Shown here piece after piece: positions 2,201 through 27,285 of a DNA stretch of 64,000 nt. This DNA comes from a virus: the IMG/VR virus record IMGVR_UViG_3300046812_000216, positions 1 to 64,000 of that record; one strand, written 5' to 3'. The notes under the pieces were generated by a model, which had not been told where the DNA came from, made no database searches, and saw only the letters and a list, made by a program, of their open reading frames with translations. The position numbers and the translations under genes were made by a program. The first letter of the stretch is position 1. The number at the start of each line of letters is the position of its first letter.

Positions 2201-4327
2201 ATGGCTCATCAGACCTTCAAGATCCGCCCCGGCGTCGAGGTCAACGAGACGCCCGTTCTCAATCAGACGGCCATTTCCGACTGCCAGTTAATCCGGTTCA
2301 AGTACGACTCTCAGGGCGGCGGACTCGTCGAGAAGCTCGGCGGGTGGACGAACTTTGCTCCGGCGGTCAACGTCACGGCTCCGCCGCGCGCCTTGTGGGC
2401 GTGGGAAGATCTCGACGCCGATTCTTGGTTCGCCGTGGGCATGGAGTCGAACCCGATGCCGCTCGGCGAGGCCAAGCTCGTCGCTTATTCCGAAGATGAG
2501 CAGCCCGGCCAGACCGGCCCCTATGACATCACGCCACTCTATCTGGCCGACGATTCCGGCGTCAATTTTCAGACCGTGGCTGGGAGCCCGGTCGTCACGA
2601 TCATCGACACCAACATTCCAGCCTTGTCCATTTACGACACGATCTACATCACGGAACAGGTGGCGATTGGCGGCCTCGTCCTATTCGGCCAATATCCGAT
2701 CTACGCCTTTGTCACCGCCGGTAAGATCCAGATCGTCGCCAAGGATCTCCTCGGCCATGTCATTCCGGCTGTCGCGAGCGCCGGGCCGGGCGCTGGCGTA
2801 GTTCCCACCATCTCCACGACAGCGGGGCTCGCTACCGCGACCGTGCATCTTCCGGCCCACGGCTATGCGGCCGGAGGCGTCTTCACGGTCCTCGTCGCGT
2901 CCACGCACGGCGGCGTGACCTTGCTTGGTGATTACGACATCATTTCAGTGCAGGGCGTTGACGACTTTACCATCGCCATCCCCACGACAGCGCCAACCAC
3001 GCAGACGAACCAGCCGATAAACAGCGGCAACGTCCGGCTGCTCTACAACATCGGCGGCGTCCCAGCCACCAGCGCCACCGGCTACGGCGTCGGCGGCTAT
3101 GGCGTCGGCGGCTACGGCACCGGCCAGACCGTGGCGGTCAACCCCGGATCTAAAATTCCAGCAATGGACTGGGCGCTCGACAACTGGGGAAAGACGCTGC
3201 TGGTCTGCCCTGAAAAAGCCGTCATCGCTGGCGTTGCAGTGTCCGGCATTTATGAATGGACGCCGGACGGAGGTCAGGTGCTGGCGCAACTGATTCCAGA
3301 AGCGCCGCCGGTCAACGATGGCTTCTTTCTCGCCATGCCGCAGCGCCAGATCGTGGCGTGGGGCTCCAGCTTCACCGGCATCCAAGACCCGCTGCTGATC
3401 CGCTGGTGCGACATAAACGATTATCATACTTGGGTGGCGACGATCACCAATCAGGCGGGCTCCTATCGGCTCCCCAAGGGCTCAAGGATTGTCGGCGCGC
3501 TGCAAAGCTCGCAGCAGGCGGTCATCTGGACCGATATCGCCGTGTGGTCGATGCAGTACATTTCGCAGCCCTACATCTACGGGTTCAACGAGATCTCTAC
3601 CGGCTGCGGCCTGATTGCCCAGAAGGCCTGCGGCACGCTGTTTGGCGTCACCTACTGGATGAGCCAATCGCAATTCTTCAAGCTGGGAGGCGGAGGCGTC
3701 GAGCCGATGCCATGCCCGATCTGGGACATAATCTTCCAGAACCTGAACAAGAACCAACTCGACAAGATCCGCTTTGCGCCCAACTCACAATTCAACGAGG
3801 TCGCTTGGTATTATCCATCGGCAGGCAGCGTCGAAAACGATTCTTACGTCAAGTTCAACGTGACCCTTGGCGTGTGGGATTTCGGCAGGCTGGCGCGGTC
3901 GGCTTGGATCAATCAGAGCGTCCTCGGCCCGCCGATTGGCGCTGACCCGGTGGCCCTGAAGATTTATCAGCACGAGACATCGACCGACGCGGCCGGACAG
4001 CCGATGGTGTCATGGTTCAAAACCGGATTTTTCGCCCTCTCCGACGCCGATGTGAAGACCTTCATCGATGAAGTCTGGCCCGACATGAAGTGGGGCTATT
4101 ATGGCGGGCAAGCGAGCGCCACCGTCAATCTGACCTTCGGCGTCAAGGATTTTCCAAGTCAAAACGCCTTCCTCGTCGGCCCGTTCAGATTGACGCAGAG
4201 CGTCGATTTCATCTCGCCGCGCGTGCGCGGGCGGCTGGTTCAGATTTCGCTCGAGAGTCACGACCTCGGCACCTTCTGGCGGACAGGAGGCATGCGCTAC
4301 CGGGGGAGCCCCGATGGCCGGTATTAG
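2201..4327 (+). CDS. Putative tail hub / packaged-DNA stabilisation protein (P22 gp10-like)
   Basis: 708 aa. The opening pattern, with LNQTAISDCQLIRFKYD followed by GGLVEKLGGW, is typical of the large beta-propeller-like short-tail proteins related to P22 gp10. The sequence is beta-rich with many Gly, Trp and Tyr and no membrane segment. A Gly-Tyr repeat (YGVGGYGVGGYGTG) lies near residue 290. It starts 1 base after the preceding stop. The assignment rests on N-terminal pattern and position. An alternative is a generic tail tubular protein. Confidence 0.5.
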   Translation: MAHQTFKIRPGVEVNETPVLNQTAISDCQLIRFKYDSQGGGLVEKLGGWTNFAPAVNVTAPPRALWAWEDLDADSWFAVGMESNPMPLGEAKLVAYSEDEQPGQTGPYDITPLYLADDSGVNFQTVAGSPVVTIIDTNIPALSIYDTIYITEQVAIGGLVLFGQYPIYAFVTAGKIQIVAKDLLGHVIPAVASAGPGAGVVPTISTTAGLATATVHLPAHGYAAGGVFTVLVASTHGGVTLLGDYDIISVQGVDDFTIAIPTTAPTTQTNQPINSGNVRLLYNIGGVPATSATGYGVGGYGVGGYGTGQTVAVNPGSKIPAMDWALDNWGKTLLVCPEKAVIAGVAVSGIYEWTPDGGQVLAQLIPEAPPVNDGFFLAMPQRQIVAWGSSFTGIQDPLLIRWCDINDYHTWVATITNQAGSYRLPKGSRIVGALQSSQQAVIWTDIAVWSMQYISQPYIYGFNEISTGCGLIAQKACGTLFGVTYWMSQSQFFKLGGGGVEPMPCPIWDIIFQNLNKNQLDKIRFAPNSQFNEVAWYYPSAGSVENDSYVKFNVTLGVWDFGRLARSAWINQSVLGPPIGADPVALKIYQHETSTDAAGQPMVSWFKTGFFALSDADVKTFIDEVWPDMKWGYYGGQASATVNLTFGVKDFPSQNAFLVGPFRLTQSVDFISPRVRGRLVQISLESHDLGTFWRTGGMRYRGSPDGRY

Positions 4328-18925: not shown

Positions 18926-18955
18926 ATCTTACCGTGGTTTATTTTGCACCGTCAA
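18926..18955 (-). promoter_or_regulatory. Sigma70-like promoter
   Basis: On the minus strand: TTGACG (18950-18955), 18-base spacer, TAAGAT (18926-18931). It lies 30 bases upstream of the 137-aa gene and overlaps the 3' end of the gene before it. The spacer holds a GGTGCAAAATAAACC block resembling the other phage promoters. Confidence 0.5.
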
Positions 18956-19190
18956 CCGCTTTTTTGACCTCGTCGGCAAAGCGGCTGTTGATTTTCGCCA
19001 GTTCGATCATGGCGTGCTTGCGGTCGTAGCAGAAGCAGTCATTGGCGTGGTGATCGACATCGAGGTCGGCCAGACACATGCAGCGCGGGCTGGAGCAAGC
19101 GCCGATCTTCGCCAGAGCCTTCTTCCGCACCTCCAGCGCATAGATGATCCAGTCGATAGGGTCAGGCGTATTTGATTCGTCCACAGACAT
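18939..19190 (-). CDS. Cys/His-containing small protein
   Basis: About 83 aa. Cys-rich centre (GACSSPRCMCLADLDVDHHA, then NDCFCYDRKHA), suggesting a zinc-binding fold. The start is uncertain: an aggagg lies immediately before the ATG and 6 bases before a GTG two codons later, so the GTG may be used. It overlaps the next upstream gene by 29 bases. Confidence 0.6.
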   Translation of the reverse strand: MSVDESNTPDPIDWIIYALEVRKKALAKIGACSSPRCMCLADLDVDHHANDCFCYDRKHAMIELAKINSRFADEVKKAVDGAK

Positions 19191-19380
19191 CCTCCTCATG
19201 GGTGCGCGGGAAAACCGTGCCGAAGGGCGTGGCATAGAGGCTTGGCGGCCGAATCAAGCAGTCGCCATAGAGCCCCTCGCTATCGACAATCTTGTCGCTG
19301 TCCACGATGTCGCGCGCGCCACGGCGCCAGTAAAAGCAGAATTTGCAGCAGCAATCCGGATCTTCGAAGATCTTCGACAT
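19162..19380 (-). CDS. Cys-rich zinc-ribbon-like small protein
   Basis: 72 aa. The DPDCCCKFCFYW motif near the N-terminus and YGDCLIRPPSLY plus a late Cys form the pattern of a small family, common in phages, that probably holds one zinc ion. The role is unknown. Confidence 0.65.
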   Translation of the reverse strand: MSKIFEDPDCCCKFCFYWRRGARDIVDSDKIVDSEGLYGDCLIRPPSLYATPFGTVFPRTHEEDVCGRIKYA

Positions 19381-20619: not shown

Positions 20620-21381
20620 TCAGATGCCCCACACCTCGAACGCCATCTGGCGGGTGACGGGGTCATTAAAATAGAAGCTGTCGATGTCCGGGACAACGAG
20701 CCCGGCAAGCTCCATCGGATCTTTCGACAGCGCGACGAAACGCTGGATGGTCGCCGCGATCTTGTTCAGCGCCAAGATGTGGCCCTTGACGTTCTCTAGC
20801 CGGTAGGTGGCGACCTTCTTGGGCGTGACGTAGGTCACCCGCCCGTCGATATTGGTGTCGGCCTTGCCGCTCTTGGCGGCGCAATAGAAGGCGATCTGGC
20901 GGGCGTGGTTGATCTTGATCTCTGACGGCAGCGCCCACGTCGTCTTCAGGTCGATGATCAGGCCGCGCTTTTCCCACTCGAAATCATAATAGCCGATCAT
21001 CGGCACTGCGATGTCGTCGAACCTGTATTCCAGCAGGCCTTGCACGCTGCTGGGCGCGCCATAGGGGAGAAGCTCGCCCATGCCCATCATCACCATTTCC
21101 GGAACGCCTCCGGCTTCTTTGTCGGCGCGCGGGTCGGTGGTCATGGCGGTCAGGGTTTTGAATTGATCCATCGCCTTGGACTGGCAGTCGCGCAGCGCGG
21201 CCTTGCTGGTCAGACCATGGGCGACGCCGGTTTCTACGGACGTGCCGCGATGGGCTGCGGCGCCAACGCTGGTTTTTTTCTTGAGGATTCGCTGAAGCAC
21301 GAAAAGGGCTGGCGACCCAATAAACTGGGTGCAGGCCGATGGGGACAGGTGATCGATGTCGTGCGCTTCAAACGGGTTCAT
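20620..21381 (-). CDS. PD-(D/E)XK superfamily nuclease (RecB/Cas4-like exonuclease)
   Basis: 253 aa. DHLSPSACTQFIGSPALFVL is the typical N-terminal motif of the family. The active-site section is IGYYDFEWEKRGLIIDLKTT (Asp, then D-x-K), followed by HARQIAFYCAAKSG (QxxxY-like). It probably resects DNA ends for recombination or degrades host DNA. With the SSB-like gene next to it, it could form a recombination pair. No Fe-S Cys cluster is apparent. Confidence 0.8.
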   Translation of the reverse strand: MNPFEAHDIDHLSPSACTQFIGSPALFVLQRILKKKTSVGAAAHRGTSVETGVAHGLTSKAALRDCQSKAMDQFKTLTAMTTDPRADKEAGGVPEMVMMGMGELLPYGAPSSVQGLLEYRFDDIAVPMIGYYDFEWEKRGLIIDLKTTWALPSEIKINHARQIAFYCAAKSGKADTNIDGRVTYVTPKKVATYRLENVKGHILALNKIAATIQRFVALSKDPMELAGLVVPDIDSFYFNDPVTRQMAFEVWGI

Positions 21382-21398
21382 GCGATCACTCCAAGAGG

Positions 21399-21426
21399 AA
21401 AACGCCGGGGACCGAAATCCCCGGCG
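21399..21426 (-). terminator. Rho-independent terminator
   Basis: Perfect 9-bp stem CGCCGGGGA/TCCCCGGCG with a 6-base loop, followed on the minus strand by TTTTCC. It ends the transcript of the secreted Gly-rich protein just before the nuclease gene. Confidence 0.75.
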
Positions 21427-21432
21427 AGTAGA

Positions 21433-21801
21433 TTAGTGACCGGCAGCGCCGCCGCCGACCGCGATCACGCTGGCTCCGCCCGACGTGGTCGAACCGGCGA
21501 GGCCGTTGCCCGAAGACGCGGCAAGCGTGCTGGAGGTGGACGAAGCCGTTCCGGCGCCGCCGCCGCCCGCGATGGAGCCGCCGAAGAAGCCGCCAGTGGC
21601 CGCCCCGCCGCCGCCCGCAACGCCGGTCGCGCTGGCGGTCGTGCCGCCGATGGCCGCAGCGTGGCCGAGCGAGCCCGTCAGCGTGCTGGAGTGGGTGTTG
21701 GTGATGACGACGCCGCCGCCGACGCCGAAGGCGTTGACCTGAGCGAAAGCCGGAGCCGCAACCAGAGCCAGCGCGCTGGCGAGAACAAGGATCTTCTTCA
21801 T
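21433..21801 (-). CDS. Secreted Gly/Ala/Ser-rich protein
   Basis: 122 aa from the ATG of the signal peptide (MKKILVLASALALVAAPAFA). The mature part is almost entirely Gly, Ala, Ser and Thr (GVGGGVVITNTHSSTLTG, AGGGGAATGGFFGGS), low in charge, and ends AAGH. This looks like a small surface or matrix protein rather than an enzyme. It has its own 293-base structured leader and its own terminator, so it is expressed as a separate unit or under leader control. Confidence 0.65.
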   Translation of the reverse strand: MKKILVLASALALVAAPAFAQVNAFGVGGGVVITNTHSSTLTGSLGHAAAIGGTTASATGVAGGGGAATGGFFGGSIAGGGGAGTASSTSSTLAASSGNGLAGSTTSGGASVIAVGGGAAGH

Positions 21802-21821
21802 GCTATTTTCCCTATAGGTTT

Positions 21822-21840
21822 GCCAAGGAACCGCCTTGGC
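21822..21840 (-). promoter_or_regulatory. Leader hairpin before the secreted-protein start
   Basis: Perfect stem GCCAAGG/CCTTGGC with a 5-base loop, ending 20 bases before the ATG of the Gly-rich protein. It is not followed by a U-run, so a translation-control or RNA-stability role is more likely than termination. Confidence 0.5.
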
Positions 21841-21857
21841 GCGGATATCTTGAGCCA

Positions 21858-21900
21858 CCGCCCACGCCCCCGAAACTGCGAAGGTCCAAAGCGTGGGCGG
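21858..21900 (-). promoter_or_regulatory. 9-bp inverted repeat in leader
   Basis: CCGCCCACG (21858-21866) pairs perfectly with CGTGGGCGG (21892-21900), with a 25-base loop. It lies between the two conserved RNA elements and the start hairpin. Confidence 0.5.
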
Positions 21901-21907
21901 CGTTCAA

Positions 21908-21970
21908 CTTGCTTTCGTGCCGCTCTGTCTGGGAGGCTTGGCACGCCCCGCTCTCCACGAGGGACGCAAG
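21908..21970 (-). ncRNA. Candidate structured RNA element, copy 2
   Basis: In transcript sense it starts CTTGCGTCCC and ends CACGAAAGCAAG; the ends pair (CTTGC/GCAAG). A middle GGGCGTG box can pair with the 3' CACG. The same three boxes occur in copy 1 with different spacer sequences and lengths, which points to a conserved RNA fold rather than a simple duplication. I do not recognise it as a known riboswitch class. Confidence 0.5.
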
Positions 21971-22023
21971 AACTTAATTCATGGTCGTCAGCAGCCGCCT
22001 GAACGGTAAAAGCCGACGACCAG

Positions 22024-22093
22024 CTTGCTTTCGTGACTAGCTGATGAGCGCGTTTTGTCACGCCCGCGCCGTTGAGTTGCGCGGGGACGCAAG
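22024..22093 (-). ncRNA. Candidate structured RNA element, copy 1
   Basis: It begins 1 base after the stop codon of the upstream secreted-protein gene. The boxes are CTTGCGTCCC, GGGCGTGAC and CACGAAAGCAAG, with the outer CTTGC/GCAAG pairing as in copy 2. The connecting sequences are unrelated to those of copy 2. Confidence 0.5.
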
Positions 22094-22094
22094 G

Positions 22095-22877
22095 TCAGTT
22101 GGAGGCCATCTTCACGCAGACGCCCGCATCGGCGGACCTCTGCGCGCCCTTCGAACCGCAGGCGGCGACGACGAAGTGACGCCCCTTGCTATCTGAATAG
22201 TCGGCGGCCTTCAATTCACGCGATTTTTCGCCGGGAATCTTGCCGTGGTACTCGCCCTTGAACACCGGGTGAGAACCATATTCCTCGCGATAGGCGACCG
22301 TCTGCACGGCATAGCGGCCGACGCGGCAGCGGATGCCGCCAGCCGTCATCGAGACGGCCAGTTCATCGTCCATGCAGAGAGTCTGCAATGCGGCGTCGCG
22401 CTGCCCAAAGTTCCACAGCGTGCGCGCATTCAACCGCTTGTTGCAGGGGCCGTCCTGCCACGGAAAACCCAGCGCTCCCCCTCCTCCCACAGCGGCGCCG
22501 CCCAGCGAGACAGAGCCGTTGCAGCTTTCGATGCCCGCAGCCGCCATGCCGGGCGCAAACACCGCCGGAGCCTGCCCGGTGGTCGTGCTGTTGAAGGTGT
22601 TGGTGTTGGCCGCGCCGGACTGGTTGGCGTTGACGGAGCGGACGCCGACCGTCTGCGCGCTGTTGATGCGCGAATTGACGTTCGAGTTGGAGTTGGACCG
22701 GGACTGCGAGGCCGAAGCGGCGTTCGCGGTGTTGCGGTTGTTCTGGACGGGAGCGGCCACGGCGGTCGAGCGCGAGCCCGAAGTGGCGATGCCGGTGCCG
22801 ACGCCGATGGCGTTCTGTGCGAAGGCGGTGGTGGAAAGAAGGCCCAAACCAAGGGCGGCGACAATGATCTTCTGCAT
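22095..22877 (-). CDS. Secreted protein with Ser/Asn-rich linker and Cys-containing C-terminal domain
   Basis: 260 aa from the ATG preceded by ggag; an ATG 5 codons earlier is also in frame. It has a signal peptide (MQKIIVAALGLGLLSTTAFA), a Ser/Asn/Ala linker (NAASASQSRSNSNSNVNS) and a folded domain with about five Cys (GFPWQDGPCNKRLNARTLWN, ALQTLCMDDELAV, GGIRCRVGRYAV, VVAACGSKG, GVCVKMASN). It is probably periplasmic or outer-surface. No family is assigned. It is followed directly by the tandem RNA elements. Confidence 0.7.
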   Translation of the reverse strand: MQKIIVAALGLGLLSTTAFAQNAIGVGTGIATSGSRSTAVAAPVQNNRNTANAASASQSRSNSNSNVNSRINSAQTVGVRSVNANQSGAANTNTFNSTTTGQAPAVFAPGMAAAGIESCNGSVSLGGAAVGGGGALGFPWQDGPCNKRLNARTLWNFGQRDAALQTLCMDDELAVSMTAGGIRCRVGRYAVQTVAYREEYGSHPVFKGEYHGKIPGEKSRELKAADYSDSKGRHFVVAACGSKGAQRSADAGVCVKMASN

Positions 22878-22892
22878 GCTACTGTTCTCCAA

Positions 22893-24441: not shown

Positions 24442-24461
24442 TTACTTTCTCCATGTTAATT

Positions 24462-25752
24462 GCCTGCCTTGCCAGACCGGGCGGAACCCCGCCTAGCCTT
24501 GCCGCGCCTTGCCTGCCGCGCCTTACCCCACCGCGCCTTGCCCCTCCAAACACTGCCGCGCCCTGCCTGCCTCGCCGAGCCCCGCCGCACCTGACCGGGC
24601 CTCGCCTGCCTTGCCCGGCCGAGCCGCGCGGCGCCGCGCCACGTATCGCCATGCCTGCCTTGCCTTGCCGCACCCAACCGTGCGCCGCCAAGCCTAGCGC
24701 TGCCTGCCTTGCCTATCCGCGCCAAGCCTTGCCTTGCCCGACCCAGCCTTGCCGAGCCTCGCCTGCCTGCCTTGCCGGGCCGTGCCATTCCTAGCCGGAC
24801 CCCGCCTTGCCTGCCGCGCCCGGCCTGACCATGCCTTGCCATGCCGGGCCACACCACGCCTGCCGCGCCCCGCCTAGCCCCGCCTTGCCTAGACGTGCCT
24901 TGCCTCGCCGTGCCTGCCTTGCCTTGCCTTGCCGGGCCAGTCCTCGCCCCGCCTCGCCTTGCCACGCCTGCCTCGCCCCGCCAGACCGAGCCGCGCCCAG
25001 ATCTGCCGCGCCGCGCCTGCCACGCCATGCCTAACCGTGCCGCGCCGAAACAAGCCATGCCATGCCTGCCGCGCCTCTCCATGCCAAGCCGCTCCCGGCC
25101 CGACCTTGCCTCGCCTGCCTCGCCGCGCCTCGCCACGCCTTGCCTCGCCACGCCTTGCCTGCCTTGCCTCGCCAGACCCCGCCCAGCCCTGCGTCGCCGC
25201 GCCAGCCGTTGCCTCGCCCCGCCTGCCTCGCCGAGCCGATCCGAGCCGAGCCCTGCCTTGCCAGACCGAGCCTGCCGAGCCAAGCCTGACCCTGCCCAGC
25301 CGTGCCTAGTCATGCCTGCCGTGCCGCGCCCCGCCTCGCCTCGCCGCTCCTTGCCTGCGTTGCCTGACCATACCCGGCCTTGCCACGCCGTGCCGTGCCT
25401 GCCGAGCCTTGCCGTGCCGCGCCGTACCCCGCCGCGCCAGTCCAGACCGGGACGGACCCAGCCTTGCCTTGCCTTGCCGCGCCTGCCGTGCCTGACCGTG
25501 ACCAGCCTTGCCTTGCCTCGCCGCGCCTGCCGTGCCGTGCTATGCCGGGCCTCGCCATACCGAGCCGAGCCGCGCCACGCGCTGCCTGCCTTGCCCTGCC
25601 TGACCTGACCTAGCCACGCCTGACCGGACCAAGCCTTGCCCCGCCTGCCCTGCCCTGCCCCGCCGCGCCTTGCCTAGCCTAGCCGTGCCGGGCCTTGCCT
25701 GCCGTGCCACACCTTGCCGAGTCGCGCCGAGCCCAGCGTTGCCACGCCTGCG
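24462..25752. repeat. Hierarchical (GCCNN)n array with GCCT phase-jump markers
   Basis: About 1.29 kb of plus-strand pentamers in which GCC is strongly kept at three positions and the other two bases vary freely. The regular phase is broken by single 4-base units (GCCT), seen as GCCTGCC. I count 27 such markers (two as GCCTGCG), from 24462 to 25746. Every marker-to-marker distance I measured equals 4 modulo 5, and 49 is the commonest (9 pentamers plus one tetramer); others are 39, 44, 54, 59, 64 and 84. Long ORFs cross it in several frames only because stops are rare in this composition. No function is known to me. Confidence 0.9.
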
Positions 25753-26522: not shown

Positions 26523-26699
26523 ATGGCTAAAAATAAATCCCCAAAGACTGAAGTGGTGAAGATGATCGCTTTTTCCATCCGGCTGCGGCCGGAGGTCGCC
26601 GTCAGGCTGCATCGACTGGCGGATAATGAAGAGCGATCTGTCGCGTATATGGTCGGCAAGGCGGTCGATATGCTGCTGGCGGAGCGCGCCCGTGGATAA
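26523..26699 (+). CDS. Ribbon-helix-helix (CopG-like) DNA-binding protein
   Basis: 58 aa. The start is set by aaggag (26511-26516) 6 bases before this ATG; another ATG lies one codon earlier. MIAFSIRLRPEVAVRLHRLA is the RHH beta strand plus helix A, and NEERSVAYMVGKAVDMLLAE helix B. It is first in the plus-strand replication operon and divergent from the array-side genes, so it may regulate this intergenic region (26424-26519). It overlaps the methylase start. Confidence 0.7.
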   Translation: MAKNKSPKTEVVKMIAFSIRLRPEVAVRLHRLADNEERSVAYMVGKAVDMLLAERARG

Positions 26700-27285
26700 G
26701 GCCAGCAAGAAGGAAAGGCGCGCCCAGCGAGAGGTCGAGCTTTCGGGCAAGATCCTCGCCCTGCCCGACAAACGCTATGGCGTGATCTATGCCGATCCTC
26801 CATGGCGGTTCGAGACATGGTCGGAAAACGGCATGGATCGGTCGGCCGAGAACCATTATCCATGCATGAGCCTCGACGCCATCGCCAATATGCCGGTGCC
26901 GAAGATCATGGCTAGGGACTGCGCCCTGTTCATGTGGGCGACTGTCCCGATGCTGGTGAGCGCGCTCAACGTCATGCATTTATGGGGATTCACCTATAAG
27001 AGCCATGCGATCTGGGTGAAGCCAAACGCCATCACCGGCTATTGGTTCAGGAATCGGCACGAATTGCTGCTGGTCGGCACGCGCGGCCAGATCCCGGCGC
27101 CAGCGCTGGGGACGCAATTCGAATCGGTGTTTCTGGCGCCGACCAGCGTCCACAGCGCCAAGCCGGAAAAGGCGGCGCAGATGATCGAGCATTATTATCC
27201 CAACATTCCAAAAGTTGAATTGTTTTGCCGTGGTGCGCCGCGTCCCGGCTGGTCTGGCTGGGGTCAGGAGTGCGAAGGTGAATAA
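26692..27285 (+). CDS. MT-A70 family adenine methyltransferase
   Basis: 197 aa from a GTG start (ggag upstream) that overlaps the RHH stop. The catalytic DPPW is at residues 35-38 (GVIYADPPWRFETW). LWGFTYKSHAIWVKPNAI, then WFRNRHELLLVGTRG, are the family SAM-pocket and core motifs. It should transfer a methyl group to adenine N6 in DNA, perhaps protecting phage DNA from restriction or marking it. No cognate endonuclease is adjacent, so it is an orphan methylase. GANTC specificity of the CcrM type would need a different family. Confidence 0.88.
   Translation: MDKASKKERRAQREVELSGKILALPDKRYGVIYADPPWRFETWSENGMDRSAENHYPCMSLDAIANMPVPKIMARDCALFMWATVPMLVSALNVMHLWGFTYKSHAIWVKPNAITGYWFRNRHELLLVGTRGQIPAPALGTQFESVFLAPTSVHSAKPEKAAQMIEHYYPNIPKVELFCRGAPRPGWSGWGQECEGE

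Follow-up and report, generated by a model that had tools for sequence, protein, structure and literature searches.

A three-way-junction RNA followed by a long hairpin recurs between genes of uncultured phages and may act as an intercistronic mRNA module

An intergenic leader of an uncultured phage carries two tandem copies of a structured RNA that recurs in four phage lineages in total, beside different genes. The RNA consists of a three-way junction, which has a conserved core and covarying helices, and a long hairpin that follows. That it represents a real RNA family is, in our judgment, almost certain. The sequence analyzed, referred to here as the window, comprises 64,000 nucleotides (positions 1 to 64,000) of IMG/VR virus record IMGVR_UViG_3300046812_000216, a 67.7-kb record in which terminase, portal, head, and replication genes are present.

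The tandem units and their flanking genes

The two elements lie on the minus strand, copy 1 at 22093..22024 (70 nt) and copy 2 at 21970..21908 (63 nt), and share the boxes CTTGCGTCCC, GGGCGTG, and CACGAAAGCAAG with the same letters in the same order, in agreement with a preliminary description of this DNA that had proposed two such elements of 63 and 70 nt. An exact 12-mer occurs twice in the 64-kb window, both times within the elements, and a two-box pattern occurs twice across the 67.7-kb record. The outer boxes, which had been said to pair, form helix P1 (CUUGC/GCAAG). The inner boxes, for which pairing had been considered possible, make two helices, P2 (CC.../...GG) and P3 (CGUG/CACG), so that the fold is a single three-way junction. 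The layout of each element is P1 (five pairs), GUC, P2, no spacer, P3, AAA, and the closing strand P1'. P2 has seven pairs and P3 six in copy 1 (22024..22093); copy 2 (21908..21970) has the same core with different arms and loops, and copies within one leader generally have their junction letters in common while their arms and loops are little alike. Model R1, in which both copies served as training sequences, scores copy 1 at 73.6 bits and copy 2 at 62.2 bits.

Behind each junction stands a long hairpin, which is an addition to the preliminary description. Hairpin 1 (21982..22022, minus strand; 41 nt with 11 contiguous pairs) lies 1 nt past copy 1, and hairpin 2 (21856..21902, minus strand; 47 nt with 15 contiguous pairs) lies 5 nt past copy 2. 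The folding energy of hairpin 2 is -30.2 kcal/mol for the sense and -23.1 kcal/mol for the antisense strand. No U run follows either hairpin, which indicates that they are not intrinsic terminators.

The upstream gene (22095..22892, minus strand) encodes a secreted Ser/Asn/Gly-rich protein with a signal peptide recognized by eye, and only 1 nt separates its stop codon from copy 1; the same 1-nt gap is found at related loci L003, L004, L008, L021, and L022. Relatives of this protein are 76-83% identical to it, and its only family match is a weak one to a PHROG of unknown function. The downstream gene (21433..21801, minus strand) encodes a 122-residue Gly-rich protein, likewise with a signal peptide by eye, for which no Pfam or PHROG family was found. 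Past its stop codon lies an intrinsic-terminator-like hairpin (21403..21426, minus strand). The terminator scan is not significant by itself, since one site was found against 1.3 expected in shuffles, and support comes from the position after the stop; T-run hairpins are readable past the downstream gene in L003 and L020 too. Within the window leader no U-tailed terminator was found, and a scan covering the sigma-70 type detected no sigma-70-like promoter in 21300-22300. A further hairpin near the ribosome-binding site (21822..21844, minus strand), in which CCGC precedes a stem with CGG in its loop (one found with this pattern, 0.39 expected), may form a small pseudoknot and is kept in all leaders seen, including that of L025, which has no junctions.

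Elsewhere in the window, a low-complexity G-rich array of GGCARGCG-like units extends over approximately 24450-25600, and another phage has a C-rich stretch of similar style near its locus L027. An MT-A70-type methyltransferase gene (Pfam PF05063, E 1.4e-25) is located at 26626-27285 on the plus strand. The nearest match to the window terminase (63%) comes from a Caudoviricetes record from a spring, and the next (41%) from a Paracoccus phage; because of these relatives, an alphaproteobacterial host is plausible.

Recurrence, covariation, and the accompanying hairpin

A motif scan of IMG/VR returned nine stretches, eight of them members and one (L011) a non-member, and searches with the downstream and upstream proteins returned 12 loci each from the same 11 contigs. 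The element is kept in 10 of 11 related IMG/VR contigs, or 11 of 12 if the window's record is included (whole-record search), and no copy was found elsewhere in these 12 records at E<=5. Among the 11 contigs, leaders have two copies in seven, one in three, and none in G011, whose locus L025 keeps both flanking genes yet lacks the element; one of the two-copy contigs carries two leaders with four copies in all. As L020, L021, and L022 were reached via protein, the conservation of GCGUCCC, GGCGU, and ACGAAAG in them is not an artefact of the motif search.

Two observations concern the leaders of these relatives. Record IMGVR_UViG_3300046559_000446 (138254 bases; L007 and L008) contains two related, unequal leaders 68.9 kb apart, and with 138 kb, about twice the length of the window record, it perhaps consists of two phage genomes joined in assembly. 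L017 carries a tRNA-like insert (3849-3933, plus strand) in a leader of the L008/L009/L010 group; Rfam tRNA-Sec matches it with 19.3 bits, below the gathering score, and ARAGORN reports no tRNA.

A relaxed pattern scan (38 stretches, 27 new loci) led to the rejection of 22 loci and the retention of five, which constitute three further lineages: L153; L150; and the near-identical L145, L160, and L162. Relatives and further lineages therefore carry the element, the opposite of the absence of further hits that the preliminary description had named as a reason to abandon it. Model R1, from whose training the kept loci were absent, scores L153 at 36.4 bits and L150 at 22.8 bits. P1 extends over 11 positions with one mismatch in L150 and reads CAAGC/GCUUG inside nine pairs in L145. 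L145 was absent from the R1 matches at E<=10 and was likewise missed in the record search with model R2, which was built from alignment A7 with L153 and L150 and without L145; scored directly, L145 reaches 27.6 bits with R2. Rejects from the relaxed scan score nearly alike (up to 26.0 bits, L154), so that helices and hairpin carry as much weight as the score in assigning L145 to the family. Random pattern-bearing sequence has at least four of the five P1 pairs, at least four pairs in P2, and at least five in P3 in 0.7% of cases, a share that drops to 0.1% when all five P1 pairs are required; L153 and L150 reach the 0.7% standard, whereas L145 falls short by the pattern's P3 measure and is placed by P1, P2, and the hairpin.

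Further searches delimit the family. The last relaxed scan (55 stretches, 27 new loci) gave no member. Among 14 more records (terminase, nuclease, and pattern relatives), 12 had no R1 match, the only matches being in the L153 and L164 records, and R2 in 33 records found, beyond known members, only weak matches in the L148, L161, and L160 records. Cultured phages searched with both secreted proteins returned nothing, as did genome contigs searched with a strict pattern fixing P1 or with the upstream protein alignment; BLAST of the loci of the three other lineages gave no match or gene matches only (e.g., MazG and recombinase). Several candidates were rejected: L164, which scores 26.7 bits with R1 and has no junction fold; L191, which has a 12-bp hairpin but no junction; and L011, L026, L027, L031, L032, and L033, chance matches to the pattern that have no junction fold.

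The minimum-energy sense structure has the junction layout in all 11 elements folded. Single-sequence folding energies are weak (z of -2.8 and -0.5 for the window copies, and -0.66 to -3.2 across the 11 elements), and the proof of the predicted fold is comparative rather than energetic. After repeated sequences from near-identical contigs had been dropped, the joining strands between the three helices were GUC, none, and AAA in 15 of 15 distinct elements, and the core letters read GC-GUC-CC...GG-CGU...ACG-AAA-GC. The unpaired GUC and AAA and the near-invariant junction-side pairs are conserved while the outer helices drift; in the pattern-found lineages, however, the search pattern itself required these core letters. 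Alignment A6 (11 elements) has 96.3% of 162 cells paired, with both-sided changes in five of 15 pairs, and slid versions reach at most 44.4%. The corresponding values for alignment A7 (13 distinct elements) are 96.4% of 192 cells, both-sided changes in seven of 15 pairs (21 cells), and at most 41.9% for slid versions; none of 500 shuffles reaches any of these measures. Both alignments were fitted to the structure, which favors it, and a hand-made, alignment-free pair table agrees. The pairs that vary are P1 1-4, P2 3-4, and P3 4-6, those nearest the junction being invariant. A lack of compensatory changes, the other outcome that the preliminary description had said would count against it, was likewise reversed, with pairs changing on both sides.

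The junction pairs of the 15 elements include 12 G.U against three A.C in 236 cells when read on the gene strand (p 0.035, a guide only because the elements are related), an excess that fits an RNA of that strand. The strand of the element is always that of the neighboring genes.

In 14 of 14 cases (12 different hairpin sequences), the element is followed at a distance of 0-5 nt by a hairpin 39-56 nt long with 11-18 contiguous pairs; as a control, 11 pairs were reached at 1.65% of 4000 random places in the same loci. This count leaves aside L160 and L162 as near-copies of L145, and the L160 hairpin was seen separately. Because every element checked is followed by such a hairpin, the unit consists of junction plus hairpin. 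The shape of the hairpin is conserved and its letters are free, the counterparts of hairpin 1 in L003, L004, and L008 differing in letters only. The sense RNA of the hairpin is more stable than the antisense in 13 of 14, the exception being L004 copy 1. Separately, in the window (21902..21856, minus strand), L003, L004, L008, and L021, the hairpin that follows the last junction has GCGGTTTC-like letters in its loop, although the stems differ.

A descriptor comprising GUC, AAA, and three abutting helices occurs at 10 distinct places in 1.27 Mb, a scan that gauges specificity rather than abundance because the loci were partly fetched by motif. Nine of these places are members, with contiguous helices of at least five (P1), four (P2), and four (P3) pairs, and all nine have a hairpin of at least 11 pairs; the tenth, L044, has a hairpin of six. 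The remaining members have a mismatch or a short helix. Nine altered junction descriptors matched at zero to four places each, and the junction descriptor matched at two places in resampled sequence, none of them with a hairpin reaching 11 pairs.

Genomic context and possible functions

The unit stands between genes, and these genes vary among the lineages. At L153, the upstream frame ends with a stop codon within P2, the hairpin comes immediately after the element, and ~70 nt separate the element from the start of the next gene; the neighbors are a MazG-like gene and a homologue, by eye, of the window protein encoded at 19235..18939. The L150 element is behind HNH and recombinase genes and ahead of a small frame, and that of L145 is behind the gene for the terminase large subunit and a small gene. 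The downstream gene differs among all lineages, with none in common, and the unit precedes the start of the next gene in all four, at a distance from element to start codon of ~70 to ~150 nt. The preliminary description had presented the tandem RNA as the leader of a secreted-protein gene. Its position before that gene stands, whereas a role as regulator of that gene in particular is unsupported, because the unit precedes different genes in the three other lineages and L025 keeps the gene pair without it. Open frames run through the element in L150 and L020, which shows that it is not strictly untranslated everywhere. These frames differ by eye and have no common peptide, and a coding origin of the conserved letters was rejected. 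In L020 (3530-3950, plus strand), an extra frame begins on the stop of the upstream gene (TGATG) and extends into the junction element.

Based on these features, the model we favor, tentatively and with a probability of roughly 0.4, is that junction and hairpin serve as an mRNA module between cistrons, insulating the downstream message or protecting it. The module would act in cis in a phage polycistronic mRNA, where it precedes the start of the next gene and is flanked by genes of the same orientation. Ribonucleases would be halted or diverted by the stable junction with its hairpin, a pair present twice in the window; these might be exonucleases arriving from the upstream cistron or an RNase III-type enzyme cutting in the hairpin, or both. 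The downstream segment, its 3' end closed by the terminator, would be kept as a separate message with its own lifetime, and the conserved core might rigidify the junction or be held by a protein. A general mRNA module is preferred over a single-gene sensor because of the fixed core, the free-letter hairpin, the intercistronic site, the varied neighbors, the presence of one or two copies, and the occasional loss. Free hairpin letters suit a nuclease substrate or barrier better than a signal read by sequence, and a copy number of zero, one, or two per leader suits a dose-like module. The absence of a promoter-like site and of a terminator in the leader, together with the terminator-like hairpin after the downstream gene, was counted in favor of insulation, as were the constant association of junction and hairpin and the bias of the G.U pairs and of hairpin stability toward the transcribed strand. 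Three points count against it: L025 has both genes and no element, frames cross the element in L150 and L020, and a conserved core is more than a generic barrier would require. If a segment barrier of this kind is confirmed, it would show how such phages give the genes of one transcript separate lifetimes.

The conserved core fits a protein site too. A phage or host protein bound there might repress or activate translation of the next gene, as at ribosomal-protein or phage-repressor operators, with two copies raising affinity or dose. The retention of unpaired GUC, AAA, and junction-side pairs amid drifting outer helices would be expected of such a site, as would the tandem arrangement and the placement ahead of a start in every lineage. 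We nevertheless consider it rather unlikely, given that the regulated gene would be a different one in each lineage, that the distance to the start codon varies about twofold, and that part of the core conservation was demanded by the search.

An antitermination element, in which the RNA binds RNA polymerase and causes read-through of terminators or pauses, is unlikely. It would suit a structured RNA of ~65 nt between co-transcribed phage genes, and the HK022 putL and putR RNAs are described as cis-acting phage RNAs of ~70 nt that are independent of any protein factor (PMC9378689). In contrast to the closed intergenic three-way junction plus hairpin, put RNA is described there as two stem-loops downstream of early promoters (PMC9378689). 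The element is in the middle of a gene run, with no promoter-like site near it and with the terminator-like hairpin past the next gene.

More specific still, the tandem junctions might be a bacterial counterpart of exoribonuclease-resistant RNAs (xrRNAs), a roadblock halting host RNase J as it proceeds 5'-3' from the upstream cistron. Drawn by analogy, this version of the insulating module is decidedly unlikely; if true, it would be a new class of phage RNA, with which the phage would cut its polycistronic mRNA and keep selected segments of it.

A self-cleaving ribozyme that would cut the mRNA between cistrons is very unlikely, although a compact junction of several helices, placed between phage genes and with conserved letters left unpaired, invites the comparison. 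The hammerhead ribozyme also has three helices, and GUC and GAAA occur at two of its joining strands, so that two of its three core strands have a likeness here. In contrast to the hammerhead, P2 and P3 abut where the CUGANGA strand would be, conserved unpaired nucleotides number only six, and no Rfam ribozyme family matches at E<=10 in any of the four lineages.

Tandem riboswitch aptamers, suggested by a leader with tandem folds and a three-way junction, are highly improbable, as none of the lineages has a gene for metabolism or transport downstream of the unit and as there is no terminator-type expression platform in the leader, no Rfam match, and no constancy of the downstream gene. Least probable is a DNA-level site for recombination, packaging, or replication, for which palindromic arms and tandem copies might be cited and against which stand the G.U excess, the greater stability of the sense hairpin, the constant strand, and the confinement to one intergenic place.

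Comparison with known RNA systems

Rfam 15 gives no match at the gathering score across the whole window, in line with the earlier impression that no known class fits, and at E<=10 the leader and the other lineages give only matches far below that score. A literature search confined to titles and abstract openings returned no description of the junction motif. The family and its architecture appear new, whereas cis-acting phage RNA as a sort is already known; to our knowledge, few such modules are understood outside coliphages. The finding matters because a structured RNA family, supported by real covariation and missing from Rfam 15, turns up in several lineages of uncultured phages. Because its diagnostic is simple (GUC, none, and AAA as joining strands plus a hairpin of 11 or more base pairs), anyone can search for and test it.

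Type III toxin–antitoxin loci have tandem structured RNA units (ToxI) and a hairpin ahead of a gene. Unlike in these, the downstream protein in the window carries a signal peptide and belongs to no known family, and the unit precedes other genes too. T7-type intercistronic RNase III hairpins and REP/BIME elements are long intercistronic hairpins that shape mRNA ends and stability, and we know of none among them with a conserved-core three-way junction.

A flaviviral three-way-junction xrRNA stops bacterial RNase J1 in vitro (PMC5760640). For the unit, a pseudoknot between junction loop and downstream sequence reached p<=0.05 in three of 66 comparisons, none common to the elements, a search that short or non-canonical contacts would escape. 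Kissing of the P2 and P3 loops, raised by GGAG/CUCC in three copy-2 elements, was rejected as not general, with only wA (p 0.04) standing out among 12. The element, in contrast to flaviviral xrRNAs, belongs to a DNA phage and lies between genes rather than in a 3' UTR. The flaviviral RNAs are, like the element, three-way junctions, often in tandem, with long-range structure downstream (PMC5760640).
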